DNA of 50,718 nt from a virus, in IMG/VR virus record IMGVR_UViG_3300011114_000943, positions 1 to 50,718 of that record; one strand, 5' to 3'. The translations under genes were made by a program, and so were the position numbers. The notes below the pieces were generated by a model. It made no database searches. It was not told the origin of the DNA and saw only the letters and a list, made by a program, of their open reading frames with translations. Shown here in pieces: positions 6,565-14,317 of the stretch (the stretch's first letter is position 1; every line of letters starts with the position of its first letter).

Positions 6565-7455
6565 ATGTCCGACCTCATAAACCAGTACCTGACCAACATT
6601 TCGCGACACCCAATCCTGTCCCGCGAAGCCCAACTCCGCCACTCCCGCCGCATCCAAGCCTGGGTGCGCTACACACCCCCGGGCACCACCGAGCCCGACC
6701 GCAGCGCCGCCCCCACTTCCATCGTGCGCGCCGGCCGCCGCTCCCTGGACGTCATGGCTCAAAGCAACCTGCGCCTCGTGGTGCACATCGCCAAGCGCTA
6801 CCAGCACCGCGGCCTCGAGCTCGGCGACCTAATCCAAGAGGGCAGCATCGGCCTCATCCGCGGCATCGAACTCTTTGACCCCACCCGCGGCTACGCCTTC
6901 AGCACCTACAGCTACTGGTGGGTCCGTCAATCCATCACCCGCGCCCTGTACAACCACGCCCGCCTAATCCGCCTCCCCATAAACACGCAAGAAACCCTCT
7001 TCCAGATCCGCCGCTTCGTCAACCAATACACCGCCACCACTGGCGCCGCCCCCTCCGTCGACACCATCTCCACCGAGCTCGGCCTGCCGGCCGCCCGCAT
7101 CGCCGACACCCTCACCGTCTGCGCCGTCACCGACTGCGTCTCCCTCGACGGCCTCACCCCCAACTCCGACACCGACATCGCCGAGGTGATCAGCCACCCC
7201 AATCCCCCGCTGTCCGCCTCCCCCGAAGCCACCCTCTTCTCCACCGAGCGCGAAGACCTGGTGCTGGGCGCCCTCGCCGGCCTGCCCCCCGACGAAGCGC
7301 ACATCATTACCACCCTCTTCCTGCGCGGCGGCACAATGCAGCAACTCTCCACCGAGCTCGGCATCTCTCGCCACCGCGTCAAGACGGTCTACAAGCGCGC
7401 CACCCACCGCCTCCGCACCGAGCTCAACTGGAGCCACGAGATGTTCACCGACTAG
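6565..7455 (+). CDS. Sigma-70 family RNA polymerase sigma factor (group 2-like)
   Basis: 296 residues with the full group 1/2 sigma layout. A short region 1.2 (INQYLTNISRHPILSREAQ) is followed by region 2 (NLRLVVHIAKRYQHRGLELG, DLIQEGSIGLIRGIELFDP, then the aromatic-rich melting segment YAFSTYSYWWVRQSITRAL). Region 3 has LIRLPINTQETL, and region 4.2 has the HTH TMQQLSTELGISRHRVK. The strongly conserved region 2.4 W and R residues are present, so it should bind -10 elements and open promoters. A non-conserved stretch (about residues 37-60) separates regions 1.2 and 2. Codon use equals the other early phage genes, so it is not a recent host capture. It probably redirects host RNA polymerase to phage promoters. 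Confidence 0.9.
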   Translation: MSDLINQYLTNISRHPILSREAQLRHSRRIQAWVRYTPPGTTEPDRSAAPTSIVRAGRRSLDVMAQSNLRLVVHIAKRYQHRGLELGDLIQEGSIGLIRGIELFDPTRGYAFSTYSYWWVRQSITRALYNHARLIRLPINTQETLFQIRRFVNQYTATTGAAPSVDTISTELGLPAARIADTLTVCAVTDCVSLDGLTPNSDTDIAEVISHPNPPLSASPEATLFSTEREDLVLGALAGLPPDEAHIITTLFLRGGTMQQLSTELGISRHRVKTVYKRATHRLRTELNWSHEMFTD

Positions 7456-8033: not shown

Positions 8034-8094
8034 GGCTCATGCGCGCGCATGCCGCGCGTTTCCGTCAACGGTTCCCGCGGTCCCCCCGCGGATC

Positions 8095-8149
8095 GCTTGA
8101 CAGACCCGCAGAGCGTATGCAATGCTTGATCCATCGAACGGGCCCCCGG
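8095..8149 (+). repeat. 55-bp direct repeat, copy 1
   Basis: Begins GCTTGACAGACCCGCAGAGC and continues through GTATGCAATGC to GGGCCCCCGG. It differs from copy 2 (8219-8273) at two positions only. Each copy opens with a TTGACA/TTGACG box, but no good -10 box lies 17 bases away, so promoter activity with the host sigma factor is doubtful. The conserved GTATGC block may be the relevant site for another factor. Confidence 0.75.
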
Positions 8150-8180: not shown

Positions 8181-8218
8181 CCCCGGGCCCCGATCGATCC
8201 CCCGCCCTCCCGCGGGGG

Positions 8219-8273
8219 GCTTGACGGATCCGCAGAGCGTATGCAATGCTTGATCCATCGAACGGGCCCCCGG
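8219..8273 (+). repeat. 55-bp direct repeat, copy 2
   Basis: Matches copy 1 at 53 of 55 positions, offset 124 bases. It carries TTGACG instead of TTGACA. The segment at 8003-8030 near the first promoter looks like a third, degenerate member (shared GCTTGACGGA and GTATGC). Confidence 0.75.
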
Positions 8274-8495
8274 GCCGGTTCGCAACCTTACCCCATTCTG
8301 TGACTTTATGCGCTAGGTAGCTTTCGACTGAGACGCGGCGGGATGCCGCGCAAACCTACTGATACAGGTGACGTGTGATCCATGGCCCCATCGCAAATCC
8401 CTCCGCCTATGGCGCCTGGTGACTAGCGAGCAAATCCCTAGGGGTGGGAAAGCACTGATCTGAATCGACCGATCCCCCCAGGGAAGGTAGCCAGA

Positions 8496-8699
8496 GTGTG
8501 GAGGGAGCTGCAATGCTCCTCCGTCAAAGGACGCGACGACGCCCTCGCAGGGAAAAAGCGCCCACACCAGCAGCCTCAGCCGTCAAAGCCAGTCACCCGT
8601 GAGGTGGCCAAGGTGGACTCGCTGTGCTCGCTCCTATTCCGTAAGGCCCTCGGCGATGCGTATCTTCAGTCTCTCCCCCCATCTCCGGGCAGTGCGTGA
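8496..8699 (+). CDS. Doubtful small ORF
   Basis: 67 residues with GTG start, preceded at about nine bases by GGAAGG. The predicted protein is basic and proline-rich in the middle, with one possible helix (VAKVDSLCSLLFRKALGDAY). It has no recognised domain and lacks the strong C-ending codon bias of the resident genes. It is listed because no other gene occupies this stretch; it may be chance. Confidence 0.25.
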   Translation: MWRELQCSSVKGRDDALAGKKRPHQQPQPSKPVTREVAKVDSLCSLLFRKALGDAYLQSLPPSPGSA

Positions 8700-8923
8700 G
8701 AACCTGAGAATCCCCTACGTCAATGCGTGATAGCTGTTTGTAACAGCCGGTAACGCAGTACCTCTACGGGCCAGGTTCATAGCGTTTCAGGTGGTACGGG
8801 TTAGACCAATACTGGGATACATACTCCCGGCTAGGTGATACCTAGCAGCGGTCGCTGTGTGTCGACCGTGGCAATGGGCATAAGGCTCTGCTCAACACAC
8901 CCAACCCATCTCCCCCAGAAGTT

Positions 8924-8954
8924 CCCCCTGGCGCACTGCGTCCGGGGGTCTTTT
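8924..8954 (+). terminator. Intrinsic terminator before the small-gene operon
   Basis: CCCCC 8924-8928, bulged T, GG, CGC, loop ACT, GCG, bulged T, CC and GGGGG 8944-8948, followed by TCTTTT at 8949-8954: a 10-bp stem with two single-base bulges. It ends transcripts from the regulatory interval 44 bases before the start at 8998. Confidence 0.75.
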
Positions 8955-8960
8955 GGCTGA

Positions 8961-8997
8961 GGTGCTTTGCACCTTCATCCACCAAGCTGTAACCAGC
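8961..8997 (+). promoter_or_regulatory. Covarying double-hairpin element, copy 1
   Basis: Hairpin GGTGC-TTT-GCACC (8961-8973), then TTCATCCACC (8974-8983), then GCTG-TAAC-CAGC (8986-8997), directly touching the ATG at 8998. The same order occurs before the gene at 10184, and its second part before the gene at 13919. No Shine-Dalgarno sequence lies between the element and the start codon. Likely a cis-regulatory RNA or DNA site. Confidence 0.55.
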
Positions 8998-9312
8998 ATG
9001 ATCACCCGTAAACAGTACCTGGCGGATTCCACCGCTTTGTTTCACCCCTATTACTTGCAATTTGCCGACAGCAAGCTGCGCTCTCGCGTAATGGGCGCCT
9101 TCGGACCTGAAGAGCTTGCCCATTCCACCGATCCCCATTTCAATGACATCTCCCTATCCCGCTGGGATGACCTAGCCCGCAGCTCCTACCCCTTCATACC
9201 TCATAAGCGCATAACGGCTGCCGGCGACTTCTACTCCCTGAGCTTTGGTGTCTGCCTGCTCAAAGCCATCGCTCGTGACATCAAGCAAAACCTCCCCAAG
9301 GTCGCCCAATGA
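8998..9312 (+). CDS. Hypothetical protein, first gene of the small-gene operon
   Basis: 104 residues from the ATG at 8998, chosen because it directly follows the conserved upstream element; the frame stays open 45 bases further upstream. Contains FHPYYLQFADSKLRSRVMGAF and a C-terminal helix (LLKAIARDIKQNLPKV). No family recognised. The next gene starts on its stop codon (ATGA). Confidence 0.7.
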   Translation: MITRKQYLADSTALFHPYYLQFADSKLRSRVMGAFGPEELAHSTDPHFNDISLSRWDDLARSSYPFIPHKRITAAGDFYSLSFGVCLLKAIARDIKQNLPKVAQ

Positions 9313-9548
9313 TCCAAGGTCACGCCACTGCCGAGCACTTTGCTCGCTGGGAGTCCCATGCCAAAACGCTGGACCAATACTCCCTCCGCTACATCATCAA
9401 GGACTGCCACCAAGCCGCCGCCGGCATGCGCGGCTGGAATCCCTCCCGTGAGGGCTATTACCTGGACCAAGCTGCCACCTATGGCATGGAGCTCACGCTC
9501 CGCAACCGCACCCTCCCCGCCGGACTGCGAGTCCGCCTCACCGCATGA
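9309..9548 (+). CDS. Hypothetical protein
   Basis: 79 residues, joined by ATGA overlaps to the genes on both sides, so translation is likely coupled. Rich in aromatic and charged residues (ARWESHAKTLDQYSLRYIIK, GWNPSREGYYLDQAATYGME), suggesting a compact soluble helical protein. Family not recognised. Confidence 0.7.
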   Translation: MIQGHATAEHFARWESHAKTLDQYSLRYIIKDCHQAAAGMRGWNPSREGYYLDQAATYGMELTLRNRTLPAGLRVRLTA

Positions 9549-9739
9549 GCTACCACTCCCCCATCCACCGCGCCCCCACGGAATCCTTCTCCGAGACCGT
9601 GACCTGGCTATGCGACCTCCTTTCAGTCGACCGCCGCATTGCCACATTCCTCGTCTGGGATGTGTGCACCAAGATCGGCACCGATCGCCACTACTGGATC
9701 AACACCGACCACGCCCACCGTTACATCGCTGATCTTTAA
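9545..9739 (+). CDS. Hypothetical protein
   Basis: 64 residues, starting by ATGA overlap. Contains SETVTWLCDLLSVDRRIATF and DRHYWINTDHAHRYIADL, with several His residues near the end that could bind metal. No recognised family. Confidence 0.65.
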   Translation: MSYHSPIHRAPTESFSETVTWLCDLLSVDRRIATFLVWDVCTKIGTDRHYWINTDHAHRYIADL

Positions 9740-9743
9740 TCCC

Positions 9744-9932
9744 ATGCGCAAAGCTCTCCCCTACCGCGTAGTGCGTAAAGGCACAACATTCACTGCCTAC
9801 GGCATGACTCCGGATTGCGTACTTTCTCAACACCGCACACTAGAAGCTGCGCAACGTGCCTTTGACCGGGTAACAGGCAGGGCCGTGCTTATCGGCCCCG
9901 AAGGCACCACCCTCAACCATCGCATCGTGTGA
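9744..9932 (+). CDS. Hypothetical protein
   Basis: 62 residues from the ATG at 9744, four bases after the previous stop; the frame is open upstream but only as a shadow of the preceding gene. Alternating basic and beta-prone residues (YRVVRKGTTFTAYG, RAVLIGPEGTTLNHRIV) suggest a small beta-rich fold. Family not recognised. Confidence 0.6.
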   Translation: MRKALPYRVVRKGTTFTAYGMTPDCVLSQHRTLEAAQRAFDRVTGRAVLIGPEGTTLNHRIV

Positions 9933-9936
9933 CCTC

Positions 9937-10107
9937 ATGACCCTTTCCCCATACGACAAAGCCACCGAAGTGTGGTTCTTGCTCCATAAAGCAGAGCAAC
10001 TTGTCATCAACGACAAGGCTTATCACCCCAATGTCCTGCAAATGCTCAACAACTGCATGGACGTTGTTGAGACCCTCCAGCACGACATAGAGGCATCCGG
10101 CAACTGA
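9937..10107 (+). CDS. Hypothetical small helical protein
   Basis: 56 residues from the ATG at 9937, four bases after the previous stop. It is wholly helical in appearance (YDKATEVWFLLHKAEQLV, then VLQMLNNCMDVVETLQHDIE). Codon pattern and spacing match the operon. Last gene before the 10.1-kb intergenic hairpins. Confidence 0.6.
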   Translation: MTLSPYDKATEVWFLLHKAEQLVINDKAYHPNVLQMLNNCMDVVETLQHDIEASGN

Positions 10108-10116
10108 AGCACCCCC

Positions 10117-10183
10117 GGAGCCGTTCCCCTGCGGCCGGCTCCCTGGGCGCCTCGCGCCTCATCCACCCAAGCTGTGATCAGCT
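10117..10183 (+). promoter_or_regulatory. Hairpin plus covarying element, copy 2
   Basis: GGAGCC (10117-10122) can pair with GGCTCC (10137-10142). Then GGCGC-CTC-GCGCC (10146-10158), TCATCCACCC (10159-10168) and GCTG-TGAT-CAGC (10171-10182), touching the ATG at 10184. Compared with copy 1, the first stem changes from GGTGC/GCACC to GGCGC/GCGCC, so pairing is kept by compensating changes. Confidence 0.55.
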
Positions 10184-10900
10184 ATGCCAACCAATCCCAA
10201 CGGACGGGTCCTCTACGAGGGTCCGTCGATGCTTGATGGCGCGCCCATTGTCGTTATCGCGACCGGCTTTGCCGAGTCCAGCGCCAACGACAAGACGGGC
10301 TCCATGATCCAAACCTGGATCCTCCGCGCCGACCTCCCGCCCCACCACGCCTTCAAGTCCCCCGAGGGCGCCTCCGTCTGCGGCGACTGCCCGCACCGCC
10401 TCAACCGCACCTGCTACGTCCTGTGGTACCAGGCGCCCCTAGCCGTCTGGAACTGCTGGCGCACCGGCGCGGGCTACGCCCCGGCCACCCCGGCCGACTT
10501 CGACGGCCGCGACCTACGCCTCGGCTCCGCCGGCGACCCGGCCGCCGTCCCCCGCTGGATCTGGGAGTCGATCCTCCCCCGAGTGCGCAAGCGCACCGGC
10601 TACACCCACCAATGGCGCCGCGGCGTTGGCGCCTGGCTCCGCGGCACGGTGCAAGCCAGCTGCGACTCCCTCACCGACCTGACCGACGCCCGCGGCGCCG
10701 GCTGGCGCACCTTCACGGTGCTCCCGCTGGGCGAAGCCGACCCCGCCGGCACCATCCACTGCGCCGCCTCCACCGAGCGCGGCAACAAAACCAACTGCGC
10801 CACATGCGGCCTCTGTGACGGCGCCTCCGCCGACGTCTCCATCTGGGCCCACGGCACCCGCGCCGCCCATGTCCAACCCTCTACCCCCGCCCTCGCATGA
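10184..10900 (+). CDS. Conserved phage protein with two Cys clusters
   Basis: 238 residues from the ATG directly after the regulatory element. The N-terminus (NPNGRVLYEGPSMLDGAPIV, then KTGSMIQTWILR) is of a type I associate with conserved phage and plasmid proteins of unknown function. Putative metal sites are CGDCPHR with a following TCYV, and a C-terminal run with C-x2-C-x2-C (CATCGLC). The C-terminal half has many Trp and Arg residues, suggesting nucleic-acid binding. The role is unknown. An ATGA overlap leads to the next gene. Confidence 0.75.
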   Translation: MPTNPNGRVLYEGPSMLDGAPIVVIATGFAESSANDKTGSMIQTWILRADLPPHHAFKSPEGASVCGDCPHRLNRTCYVLWYQAPLAVWNCWRTGAGYAPATPADFDGRDLRLGSAGDPAAVPRWIWESILPRVRKRTGYTHQWRRGVGAWLRGTVQASCDSLTDLTDARGAGWRTFTVLPLGEADPAGTIHCAASTERGNKTNCATCGLCDGASADVSIWAHGTRAAHVQPSTPALA

Positions 10901-11040
10901 ACCGCTACCTGCTACTCGGCCTCGCCTTTGGCCTCACCCTGGGCGCCGCCATCATCCTGAGCACCCGCTCCTCGGCGCCCTCCGCGCCTCCCTCCGCCCT
11001 AGCCGACCACCGCACCCTCACCACCTACCCCGGCCCATGA
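10897..11040 (+). CDS. Small membrane or secreted peptide
   Basis: 47 residues, ATGA-coupled at both ends. Begins MNRYLLLGLAFGLTLGAAII, a classic N-terminal hydrophobic helix after one Arg, followed by a short Ser/Ala/Pro-rich tail. There is no lipobox Cys. It is either an uncleaved N-terminal anchor or a signal peptide. Confidence 0.65.
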   Translation: MNRYLLLGLAFGLTLGAAIILSTRSSAPSAPPSALADHRTLTTYPGP

Positions 11041-11303
11041 ACCCCCGGCTCACCGTCGACTTCGTCGATCCCGCGCCCACTGTGGCGCCCCACCTCGTCC
11101 AATTCGCCTACAGCGAAGACCTCCGCGTCGCCGTCATCCACGCCGACGGCGCCGGCTACCGCGTCGTGTGGGACTCCCACGGCGACTACACCCCCCTAGC
11201 CGACTACATCTCCCACTCACTAGATGAGTGCCAAGCCCACATACAAGCGCACGCCCCCGCCTGGGCCGCAGCGCACGCGCAGCAAGTTGAGCTATCCGAC
11301 TAG
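11037..11303 (+). CDS. Hypothetical protein
   Basis: 88 residues from the ATGA at 11037. A predicted beta-rich part (VQFAYSEDLRVAVIHADGAG, YRVVWDSHGDYTPLADYISH) is followed by an Ala/His-rich helix. Family not recognised. The 54 bases after its stop, up to 11358, form a small gap with only a weak TTGCGC-N17-TACCTT promoter-like pair. Confidence 0.65.
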   Translation: MNPRLTVDFVDPAPTVAPHLVQFAYSEDLRVAVIHADGAGYRVVWDSHGDYTPLADYISHSLDECQAHIQAHAPAWAAAHAQQVELSD

Positions 11304-11357
11304 ATTGCTTGCGCTTCCCCCACATACCTGCTACCTTTCACTTACTTGCCCACCCCC

Positions 11358-11702
11358 ATGCAACTCAAGACCCGCAACACCCGCACCTACAGCCCCACGG
11401 GCACCATCGGCCGCCGCCTCTCCAAGGCCTACGCCACCCAACTCGAATCGCAGCGCCTCACCGCCGAGCTCACCGGCCACCGCCAATGGATCTGCACCCG
11501 CATGATCCAGCTCAACCTCGACCGCATCGAGCACGGCGACCTCCTCGTTGTGCGCAAGGTCCGCCACCGCTGGACCTACACCCCCGAAACCGAGGCCGCC
11601 ATGCTCGCCCTCCGCAAGATCCAGGACCGCGAGCAGGCCGAAGGCCTGGCCACCGACACCCCCACCGTCTACGTCTCCCTCTCCACCAACTTCGCCCCAT
11701 GA
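11358..11702 (+). CDS. Hypothetical basic protein
   Basis: 114 residues from the ATG at 11358; a TTG at 11346 would add four. Basic and helical (RRLSKAYATQLESQRLTAEL, WICTRMIQLNLDRIEHGD), with a beta-like LLVVRKVRHRWTYTPE in the middle. It could bind nucleic acid, but no motif proves this. ATGA overlap with the next gene. Confidence 0.65.
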   Translation: MQLKTRNTRTYSPTGTIGRRLSKAYATQLESQRLTAELTGHRQWICTRMIQLNLDRIEHGDLLVVRKVRHRWTYTPETEAAMLALRKIQDREQAEGLATDTPTVYVSLSTNFAP

Positions 11703-11902
11703 ACGCCACCACCCTCTCCCCCACCCAGCTCCACCGCACCTGGGTCGCCATCGAGCGCAACGGCGGCGGCTTCTGCGAGCGCCTGGCCAGCGCCTGGTTC
11801 CACGCCGACGACCGCAACAAGGCGCGCCTCGACCACGCCTTCGAGCACCTCCTCACCGAGTTCGGTCCCGGCTCCATCTACTACATCGACCGCCCCCTGT
11901 GA
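11699..11902 (+). CDS. Small conserved-looking phage protein
   Basis: 67 residues, ATGA-coupled. The sequence LHRTWVAIERNGGGFCERLA followed by FHADDRNKARLDHAFEHLL and EFGPGSIYY is compact and highly ordered, of a kind seen in many small phage proteins of unknown function. No catalytic motif is apparent. Confidence 0.65.
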   Translation: MNATTLSPTQLHRTWVAIERNGGGFCERLASAWFHADDRNKARLDHAFEHLLTEFGPGSIYYIDRPL

Positions 11903-12060
11903 TGTACCAGTTCACCTTCGCCCGCCAAACCCCCGGCCCCCGCGCCGCCCTCCTCCAACGCGTCACCGTCACCGCCCCCACCAGCGCCTACGCCTGGGCC
12001 CTATTCGAGGCCCTCTACCCACAGCGCCACTTCATAGCCTTCACCTGCACCCATGTCTGA
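11902..12060 (+). CDS. Hypothetical small protein
   Basis: 52 residues; its ATG shares one base with the previous stop (TGATG). Beta-prone N-terminal half (MYQFTFARQ, LLQRVTVTAPTSAYAWALFE) and an aromatic C-terminus ending FTCTHV. The next gene begins eight bases before its end. Family unknown. Confidence 0.55.
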   Translation: MYQFTFARQTPGPRAALLQRVTVTAPTSAYAWALFEALYPQRHFIAFTCTHV

Positions 12061-12310
12061 CCTCACCCTCCCCTCGATCCACCTCAACGGCTCCGGCCGC
12101 CGCATGCTCACCGAGGACTACACCACCGCGTACAACGCGCTCCAGGCTGCAATCCGCGCTTTCCAGAGCGTCGAGTTCAACGCCCGCGACTATTACACCC
12201 AAGGCGCGGACGCCTTCTACCAAGCGCGCAGCCAGCGCGACGTCCAGCTGCAACACCTAGCTGGCGTTCAGCACTACCTCGAAGCCCACCTCATCCACCT
12301 CAGCGAATGA
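12053..12310 (+). CDS. Small conserved-looking phage protein, helical
   Basis: 85 residues. The segments IHLNGSGRRMLTEDYTTAYN, FNARDYYTQG and ADAFYQARSQRDVQ recall small helical phage proteins in which LNGT and RDYY are recurrent. Function unknown. It is ATGA-coupled to the next gene. Confidence 0.65.
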   Translation: MSDLTLPSIHLNGSGRRMLTEDYTTAYNALQAAIRAFQSVEFNARDYYTQGADAFYQARSQRDVQLQHLAGVQHYLEAHLIHLSE

Positions 12311-12624
12311 ACGACCCCGCCTTCAACCTGGCCCAAGTTGCCATCCACCCCACCTGGTACGACCACCTCGACGCCGTCGAAGACGCCATGGCCGAGTGCG
12401 CTCGCGTCGAAGCCCTCCGCTACTCCGCCGGCTGGGAAGCCGACGAAGGCGGCTGGTATTCCCCCGACGGCACCCCCGAATCCGACTGGGCCGACGAGGG
12501 CCTCCCATTCCCCGAGGACGTCGACACCTACACCGCCTGGCACAGCGCCTACTACCACTACGAGGCCCTAGACGTGGGTATCCCGCAGCTAGACCCCTAC
12601 CCCAACGCCCCAGCCACCGCCTAA
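12307..12624 (+). CDS. Acidic hypothetical protein
   Basis: 105 residues, strongly acidic and Trp/Tyr-rich (GWEADEGGWYSPDGTPESDW, FPEDVDTYTAWHSAYYHYEA). Such charge is common in small phage proteins that bind and block host proteins, but there is no direct evidence here. It is the last gene before the hairpins at 12630. Confidence 0.6.
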   Translation: MNDPAFNLAQVAIHPTWYDHLDAVEDAMAECARVEALRYSAGWEADEGGWYSPDGTPESDWADEGLPFPEDVDTYTAWHSAYYHYEALDVGIPQLDPYPNAPATA

Positions 12625-12629
12625 TCCCC

Positions 12630-12675
12630 CGGAGGGCTGCGCCTCCGTCACCAACGCAGCCGGCCCCGCGCCGGC
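12630..12675 (+). other. Intergenic hairpins before DUF932 gene
   Basis: CGGAGG (12630-12635) pairs with CCTCCG (12642-12647), loop of six; then two GCCGGC blocks (12659-12664 and 12670-12675) able to pair. No T-run follows, so termination is uncertain. The next gene starts 21 bases later. Confidence 0.4.
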
Positions 12676-12696
12676 CCCCCTACCCCCTTCCGCACC

Positions 12697-13776
12697 ATGC
12701 GCGACTACTCGCCCAACGTTGTCTCCACCGCCTACGCCGCCAACGGCACCGGCCCGGCCGTCTACGGCCGCTACCGCGACCGCGGCTACGAGGTCAACCC
12801 CCTCACCGCCCGCGTCGGCACCCTCGTCCCCGAGAACGTCTCCGCCTCCGAGGCCTTCGCCATCGCCGGCCTGGACTGGACCGCCCAAAAGCAGCCGGTC
12901 TACTACCTCGGCGCCGACGGCCCGATCGTCTCCCCCGAACACTGCGCCATCGTCCGCAGCGACAACTCCTCCTGCCTAGGCATCCACGGCTCCGGCTACA
13001 CCCCCGTGCAGAACACCGCCCTGGTGAACCTGCTCGACTACCTCCGCGAGGACATCCGCCTCGAGAGCGTCCTCTCCATCCACAACGGCCGCCGCGTATT
13101 CGCCACCGCCACCATCGACACCGAGGACGAAGTAGTGCCCGGCGACAAGGTCCGCCGCTACCTCCACCTCTTCAACTCCCATGACGGGAGCACCGGCTTC
13201 GGCGTCTTCTTCTCCGATGTCCGCCTGGCCTGCGCCAACCAGCTCAACTACCTCACCGGCCGCGCCGCCTCCAACGCTGCCGCCGCCGGCGATGGCCTCC
13301 GCCGCAAACACACCTCCTCGGTGACCGCGTTCGCCTCCTCCCTGCCCCACCTAATCGACCTCGAGCGCCGCAGCTTCGCCTCCTCCATCGACGAACTGCG
13401 CGCCCTCACCAGCGTCAAGCTCACCACCGAGATCGCCCGCCGCGTCCTCGAGGCCACCTTCGCCGACAAGCTCGCCACCCCTATCCGCGACAAGACCACC
13501 GACACCAAGCGCCCCCGCACCCTGGCCGACCTCCCCGAGATCCTCACCATCCGCGAGCACTACGCCGGCAACACCGGCCTGGGCATCAACACCATCCCCG
13601 GCATCGCCGGCACGGCCTACGCCCTGTTCAACGCCATCACCCAACACGAAACCCACGACTCCGGCCGCGCCAAAGACGAAACCGACCGCGCCCGCACCCG
13701 CCTCATCAGCCTGTGGGGTGGCGAGAGCGCCAAGCGCATCGACCGAGCCCGCACCGCCGCCCTGGCGCTGGTCTGA
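12697..13776 (+). CDS. DUF932-type phage/plasmid protein
   Basis: 359 residues. The order is typical of DUF932 proteins: a segment YLGADGPIVSPEHCAIVRSD, then GIHGSGYTPVQNTALVNLLD, a beta stretch VFATATIDTEDEV, then LHLFNSHDGSTGFGVFFSDV and RLACANQLNYL. The C-terminal third is helical. DUF932 proteins are common on phages and plasmids near replication genes; their biochemical role is not established. It is the largest gene of the small-gene region and is bracketed by intergenic hairpins, so probably has its own transcript level. Confidence 0.82.
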   Translation: MRDYSPNVVSTAYAANGTGPAVYGRYRDRGYEVNPLTARVGTLVPENVSASEAFAIAGLDWTAQKQPVYYLGADGPIVSPEHCAIVRSDNSSCLGIHGSGYTPVQNTALVNLLDYLREDIRLESVLSIHNGRRVFATATIDTEDEVVPGDKVRRYLHLFNSHDGSTGFGVFFSDVRLACANQLNYLTGRAASNAAAAGDGLRRKHTSSVTAFASSLPHLIDLERRSFASSIDELRALTSVKLTTEIARRVLEATFADKLATPIRDKTTDTKRPRTLADLPEILTIREHYAGNTGLGINTIPGIAGTAYALFNAITQHETHDSGRAKDETDRARTRLISLWGGESAKRIDRARTAALALV

Positions 13777-13781
13777 GCCCC

Positions 13782-13850
13782 CACCAAGAAAGACCCCGGA
13801 GTTACCACGCCCCGGGGTTGGTGCCTTCATCCACCCAGTTGTTACCAACC
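13782..13850 (+). promoter_or_regulatory. Two-part hairpin plus covarying element, copy 3
   Basis: CACCAA (13782-13787) pairs with TTGGTG (13818-13823), enclosing CCCCGG (13794-13799) and CCGGGG (13812-13817). Directly after follow TTCATCCACCC (13826-13836) and GTTG-TTAC-CAAC (13838-13849). The last stem replaces the C-G pair of copies 1 and 2 by T-A, keeping complementarity. The following gene starts 69 bases later at 13919, further away than in the other copies. Confidence 0.5.
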
Positions 13851-13918: not shown

Positions 13919-14317
13919 ATGCAAATCCCCGACACCCCCGAGGAGCTCTTCGAACGGCTCAGCGACAGCTCCGTCCGCGAGATCTTCGCTAACTACGACG
14001 AGCTCAAGCCCCGCCACCGCAAACTCGTCCACCTCTTCCACACCGAGCTCACCAAGGGCAGCCTCACCGACGCCGCCTTCCTCGACTCCCTGGCGTTCAT
14101 CACCGTCCTCTGGCGCTGCTTCAACGCCACCGCCCGCCACAACATCGAAGCGATCATCACCGAGAGCGACGACATCGACACGGCCTGGATCAGCGCCGCC
14201 GTCGACTACGGCAAGGTCGAGCAGTTCATCCATTCCATCCTCAACCTCTACGACGCCACCCCCGACCTCACCGAGATCGAAGACAGCACCACCTACCAGC
14301 TCCGCCCACGCACCTAG
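13919..14317 (+). CDS. Hypothetical helical protein
   Basis: 132 residues from the ATG at 13919 (MQIPDTPEELFERLSD); the frame is open upstream, but the conserved element makes a start there unlikely. Entirely helical by pattern, with acidic C-terminal half (EAIITESDDIDTAWISAAVD). No recognised family. Confidence 0.65.
   Translation: MQIPDTPEELFERLSDSSVREIFANYDELKPRHRKLVHLFHTELTKGSLTDAAFLDSLAFITVLWRCFNATARHNIEAIITESDDIDTAWISAAVDYGKVEQFIHSILNLYDATPDLTEIEDSTTYQLRPRT

Follow-up and report, generated by a model that had tools for sequence, protein, structure and literature searches.

A small element made of three hairpins (SL1, SL2 and SL3) stands ahead of the start codons of unrelated short genes in the 50,718-base virus record IMGVR_UViG_3300011114_000943 (the window, that is, the whole stretch of DNA that was analysed) and in its relatives, and the changes in its stems from copy to copy make it very probable that the element is an RNA structure. 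It is best read, on balance, as a transcribed, structured leader that heads exchangeable blocks of small genes and that would act on translation start and/or messenger RNA (mRNA) processing, by a mechanism that we infer.

Anatomy and covariation of the element

The unit is ordered SL1, SL2, pyrimidine-rich linker, SL3 and ATG; the linker is mostly pyrimidine and 9–14 nucleotides (nt) long in most copies, and SL3 usually takes the form GCTG-T(N3-7)-CAGC with a loop of 4–8 nt. Three copies were found in the window (Table 1), at the coordinates given by an initial annotation of this DNA, which had also quoted correctly the SL3 stems (GCTG/CAGC twice, GTTG/CAAC in the third) and the change of the preceding stem from GGTGC/GCACC in the first copy to GGCGC/GCGCC in the second. 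Its statement that two copies touch the start codon holds for site 1 and is off by a single nucleotide for site 2.

Viral contigs were searched by pattern and by protein for relatives (labelled here by L numbers), and a covariance model, R1, was built from an alignment (A2) of 42 distinct copies that left out site 3, L133, L135, L005, two rows lacking SL3 and sequence-identical rows; in the 50-row copy listing, SL3 had been assigned in 47 rows (wrongly in L133) and in none of the other three (L003 site 1, L011 site 2, L135). Run on 81 of the 138 sequences, R1 gave 127 matches at E ≤ 1 over 81 sequences. The initial annotation had named a lack of further copies in relatives as grounds for rejecting its reading; such copies are present, the matches down to E of about 3e-5 coming from 55 distinct records, the window included. 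Each of the 21 records that were searched whole has one or two matches, and match coordinates place sites 1 and 2 about 0.6 to 2 kb apart. With second loci per record and most repeated sequences dropped, 65 of the 127 matches were examined as copies; the ATG follows SL3 at 0 nt in 41 of them, at 1 nt in 16, at 2 nt in one (58 of 65 within 2 nt) and at 3–10 nt in seven.

In A2, 92.6% of cells are paired, against 86.6% in shuffles, and pairing falls to 28–57% when the partners are slid by 1–3 columns; the covariation score (0.253 vs. 0.144 in shuffles) and the number of cells altered on both sides (23 vs. 7.1) were each reached by none of 500 shuffles. Among 50 distinct copies aligned by the model, 31 cells are changed on both sides, against 9.1, in an alignment that is itself biased towards structure; a hairpin count of 40 of 40 is circular and carries no weight here. 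The layout is retained in copies that R1 was not trained on (site 1 of L003, both sites of L005, L027, site 2 of L092 and of L104, and L133), several of them with new stems, and such matches, for example L005 and L027, are more independent support than the alignment statistics. Pattern matches in L086 and L087, which have another context, and in L135 lacked the layout and were taken as chance.

All three hairpins pair through differing letters. SL3 also occurs as GCAG/CTGC (L039, L098 and site 1 of L104), GCTT/AAGC (L005 site 1) and GTTG/CAAC (window site 3 and L003). The stem of SL2 is wholly replaceable: its variants are GAGGTGC/GCACCTC, GAGGTGC/GCATCTC with a G-U pair, GAGATGC/GCATCTC (L016), GAGGG/CCCTC (L012), GAGGGA/TCCCTC (L044), TGGAGC/GCTCCA (L005), GGCGC/GCGCC, GGCGT/ACGCC (L005 site 2, where the linker holds an extra hairpin), GGGCG/CGCCC, and GCCCC/GGGGC (L085, L027). 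SL1 of site 2, without a T tract, pairs as GAGCCG/CGGCTC, GAGCTC/GAGCTC, GAGCCC/GGGCTC or GAGCCCG/CGGGCTC. A separate observation concerns L085 and L027, where a tRNA-like stretch with a GTTCAAATCC arm and a TATGTCGTA end lies directly upstream of the element and replaces SL1; ARAGORN called no tRNA in L085, the one of the two that was scanned, and tRNA genes were rejected as a candidate, with none called in either the window or 27 loci.

Within the window, folding compared with shuffles gave z −4.04 for site 1 (8915–9000), −2.6 for site 2 and a weaker −1.6 for site 3. The sequence TTCATCCACC with at most one mismatch occurs 12 times where 2.6 are expected, a count that none of 100 shuffles attained, and a longer pattern that includes the hairpin matched two sites, against 0.00 expected. 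Judged from the window alone, the abutting hairpin is not remarkable, a 4-bp hairpin abutting the ATG in 6 of 87 open reading frames (ORFs) starting with ATG and at 6.4% of random positions; the decisive evidence is comparative. The initial annotation was right that ribosome-binding sequences are missing at the element, and this is ordinary here: among the 4-mers tested, a Shine-Dalgarno (SD)-like one precedes 19 of the 87 ATG ORFs, and 68 have none. With regard to intrinsic-terminator criteria, the site 1 region carries GGGGGTCTTTT with its T run paired in the fold, and neither site 1 nor site 2 was called by a terminator scan. Site 3, located between a DUF932 gene (12697–13776) and a start at 13919 that is common to relatives, is present in the window and L003 only, falls below the R1 threshold (E = 1) and may be a remnant copy.

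Table 1. Element copies and the genes behind them in the window
Feature	Position	Strand	Description
Site 1 SL1	8915–8956	+	CCAGAAG-TT-CCCCC-T-GGCGC-ACT-GCGTC-C-GGGGG-T-CTTTTGG hairpin; in L104, L133 and L005 the lower stem is formed by other letters
Site 1 SL2	8959–8975	+	GAGGTGC TTT GCACCTT
Site 1 linker	8976–8985	+	Unpaired, pyrimidine-rich; contains CATCCACC
Site 1 SL3	8986–8997	+	GCTG TAAC CAGC; abuts ATG 8998 (0 nt)
First gene behind site 1	8998–9312	+	104 aa, phrog_25437, unknown function
Site 2 SL1	10117–10142	+	GGAGCCG/CGGCTCC hairpin, no T tract; stop codon of upstream ORF at 10105–10107
Site 2 SL2	10146–10158	+	GGCGC CTC GCGCC
Site 2 SL3	10171–10182	+	GCTG TGAT CAGC; 1 nt to ATG 10184
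Gene behind site 2	10184–10900	+	238 aa, phrog_2554/DUF7227-like, unknown function
Site 3 SL1	13792–13819	+	ACCCCGG...CCGGGGT hairpin
Site 3 remainder	13820–13849	+	GGTG/CACC hairpin, linker, SL3 GTTG TTAC CAAC (13838–13849); start codon not adjacent

Exchanged genes, likely host and neighbouring noncoding sequence

By pairwise identity the element forms a conserved island, with variable sequence on either side. Thirty site 1 contexts were collected, mostly by an exact SL1-core pattern, and 28 contexts were profiled; mean identity is 0.74 from SL2 to the ATG and 0.27–0.36 past it (0.30 in the first 60 nt), and on the upstream side it is 0.76 in the final 40 nt ahead of the SL1 core and 0.23–0.34 further out, up to −40 from the core (0.34 at −100 to −40). 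The core itself stands at 0.987, a value that, unlike that from SL2 to ATG, is partly built in by selection, because the contexts were found mostly through the exact core.

The genes behind the 65 copies form 15 clusters. A DUF7227-like cluster of 20 members stands behind site 2 in 18 cases and behind site 1 in two (L019 and L100), in which R1 found no second site; the single site is consistent with loss of the intervening cargo. In L003, the phrog_2554 gene is separated from site 2 by another gene and has no element of its own; in L021 it likewise stands behind another gene and has no element. This arrangement suggests that what the element heads is a block of genes and not one gene. The cargo of L004 is flanked by 27 identical bp. 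Ten element-headed genes were searched; four match PHROGs, none of them with a known function, and one matches Pfam DUF7227 above the cut-off. Another start-associated sequence, CATCCACACCGCCGC-loop-GCGGCGCCTCTCAC, was noted 2 nt ahead of the ATG of the phrog_2554 gene in L032 (9967) and L039 (9967).

The window has no named relative at the DNA level in the phage collection: megablast of positions 1–25000 against 50,697 phage records gave zero matches, and the site 1 leader had only short matches at chance level among phage records. Its terminase is closest to those of Cylindrospermopsis and Nodularia phages (33% and 30% identity), and a sigma-70 family factor (6565–7455) is closest to a group 2 sigma of Synechococcus phages S-CBS1/S-CBS3 (34%); since both proteins are nearest to those of cyanobacterial phages, the host of this uncultured phage group is likely cyanobacterial. 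In bacterial genomes, on which the covariance model was not run, a single exact match occurred in a Hyphomicrobiales metagenome-assembled genome; the SL2 layout is missing there, and the match was taken as chance.

Upstream of site 1, the noncoding stretch at 8849–8900 contains a covarying pseudoknot, CGGTNN/NNACCG interleaved with GCGTG/CACGC, plus a GGGCA/TGCCY hairpin; in 15 sequences 99.2% of cells are paired and 23 cells are changed on both sides, where shuffles give 6.7 and none of 500 reaches 23, the number of further pair types not being above shuffles. About 650 nt (8270–8914) between a pair of repeats and site 1 hold no convincing gene and may be a large noncoding RNA; the minimum free energy in the window is unexceptional (z −0.7), and the counterpart in relatives is a mosaic of differing noncoding stretches. 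The repeats (8075–8149 and 8199–8273) are two 75-nt copies, 88% alike, with TTGACA/TTGACG, and relatives have paired repeats of their own in the same place, about 119–125 nt apart; they look like tandem promoters, and a promoter scan did not call them. Elsewhere in the window, two pairs of direct repeats (17589–17693/18496–18600, 83% alike; 28020–28085/28928–28993, 85%), each about 907 nt apart, are possibly duplicated genes or domains.

Proposed role and rival explanations

The ORF upstream of site 2 ends 9 nt ahead of SL1, and the upstream genes differ among relatives; this leaves little room for a promoter, and the element there is most simply an intercistronic RNA. In the proposed leader, transcription would arrive from upstream and the element would act as RNA, as site 2 suggests; SL1 would separate the message from the preceding RNA, SL2 would protect or define the new 5′ part, and the linker together with SL3 would set initiation at the AUG without an SD motif, so that the same leader would serve whichever gene recombines in behind it.

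Several observations weigh against this reading. Many of the records are close kin, and the counts are not counts of independent events; in A2 only four pairs are changed on both sides, against 2.3 in shuffles (reached by 37 of 500), and of the three SL3 pairs that entered the count, two are invariant. One SL3 pair is broken in L003 site 1, most of SL3 is gone in L011 site 2, and at site 3 the closest ATG lies 19 nt downstream. In folding, AUG exposure is 0.575, against 0.487 in shuffled leaders (higher in 26 of 40) and 0.492 for 50 other ATG ORFs. With so small a gain, exposure of the AUG was rejected as the sole purpose, which leaves room for a factor that recognises the shape, or for a role in RNA ends or stability. 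Likewise rejected was a switch formed by pairing of an upstream GCTG with the CAGC of SL3: L039, L098 and L104 have SL3 as GCAG/CTGC with the upstream GCTG unchanged.

Inverted repeats at fixed positions ahead of genes, in a genome that encodes a sigma factor, could also be a palindromic DNA site to which a phage regulator binds, or a promoter element overlapping the start codon; this appears improbable, as a DNA-binding dimer would not accept SL3 arms spaced anywhere from 4 to 8 nt apart or SL2 arms of unrelated sequence, a promoter with its start at the ATG would keep the hairpins out of the transcript, and a promoter scan called no such site at sites 1–3. The initial annotation had offered RNA structure and a palindromic protein site side by side; the copies in relatives, their covarying stems and the variable loops argue for the former and against the latter. 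There is also little likelihood that the element is only a recombination seam, a repeat kept through homologous exchange and devoid of RNA function: a conserved island amid variable genes, the identical flanks of the L004 cargo, and the site-2-type gene directly behind site 1 in L019 and L100, as after cargo deletion, would all be in keeping with a seam, but what homologous exchange would select for is identical sequence, not compensated stems.

A possible, though rather unlikely, explanation is an intercistronic processing or termination unit in which the upstream RNA is ended or cut at SL1, and SL2 and SL3 only stabilise the downstream 5′ end, with no direct role in initiation. The covariation of SL1 at site 2, the intergenic location at the head of a block rather than a single gene, and the tRNA-like stretch that replaces SL1 in L085 and L027 fit this explanation, which leaves unexplained why SL3 ends 0–2 nt from the ATG in 58 of 65 copies. 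In phage T7, RNase III processing sites lie between early genes as hairpins within the operon; the element resembles them in placing hairpins between phage operon genes and differs in that SL1 of site 2 has only seven outer pairs.

Possible, though also rather unlikely, is the proposal that the element is a portable structural start signal, its shape being read by the ribosome or a trans factor for SD-independent initiation at the abutting AUG; if true, any gene recombined in behind it would be expressed at once. In the portion of a genome-wide search drawn on here, SD-less starts tend to be unstructured and conserved structural elements are argued against (PMC3121790), and SD-less cyanobacterial genes are described, in the relevant part of another study, as having weaker 5′ structure (PMC6847405); a hairpin abutting the AUG would therefore be unusual, and a structural start signal, if true, would be a counter-example to the conclusion of PMC3121790 as stated there.

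Relation to known systems and significance

The nearest parallel, as far as the source passages describe it, is the start-associated sequence (SAS) and its extended form (ESAS) of cluster K mycobacteriophages, conserved a few nt from the starts of some non-structural genes of different families; its function is given as unknown with a role in initiation proposed, and ESAS has upstream inverted repeats (PMC3203893). The likeness lies in a conserved sequence beside the starts of unrelated genes. SAS is a 13-bp sequence containing AGGAG for which its authors, in the same passages, found little RNA-hairpin support (PMC3203893), whereas the element described here has no AGGAG-type or SD sequence, and its hairpins covary; the cluster K 13-bp GGGATAGGAGCCC with at most three mismatches gave 10 matches, against a chance expectation of 17.7, and none at sites 1–3. 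On this comparison the element is not a member of the SAS/ESAS group. The structured cyanophage RNAs manA, wcaG and PhotoRC-II, of which manA is placed in potential 5′ untranslated regions and wcaG is thought to be gene-regulatory in the portion of the source consulted (PMC2864571), are similar as structured RNAs of cyanophages; the present element differs in having no Rfam match, in abutting the AUG and in preceding many unrelated short genes. Searches of the window and 10 loci with Rfam 15 gave no match at the gathering threshold, closer searches gave matches far below threshold only, and a known RNA family was rejected on these grounds. Judged against the open-access literature, the element is real and new: a small RNA whose general kind (leader or start-associated element) is known, and which is unusual in combining its position with exchange of the genes behind it.

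The two cargo sites that the element marks are fixed in this uncultured phage group, and accessory genes can be found systematically through it. If the proposed leader function is true, it would show how a ready-made slot for expression lets phages take up unrelated small genes, and would provide a concrete, testable structural signal for SD-less starts.

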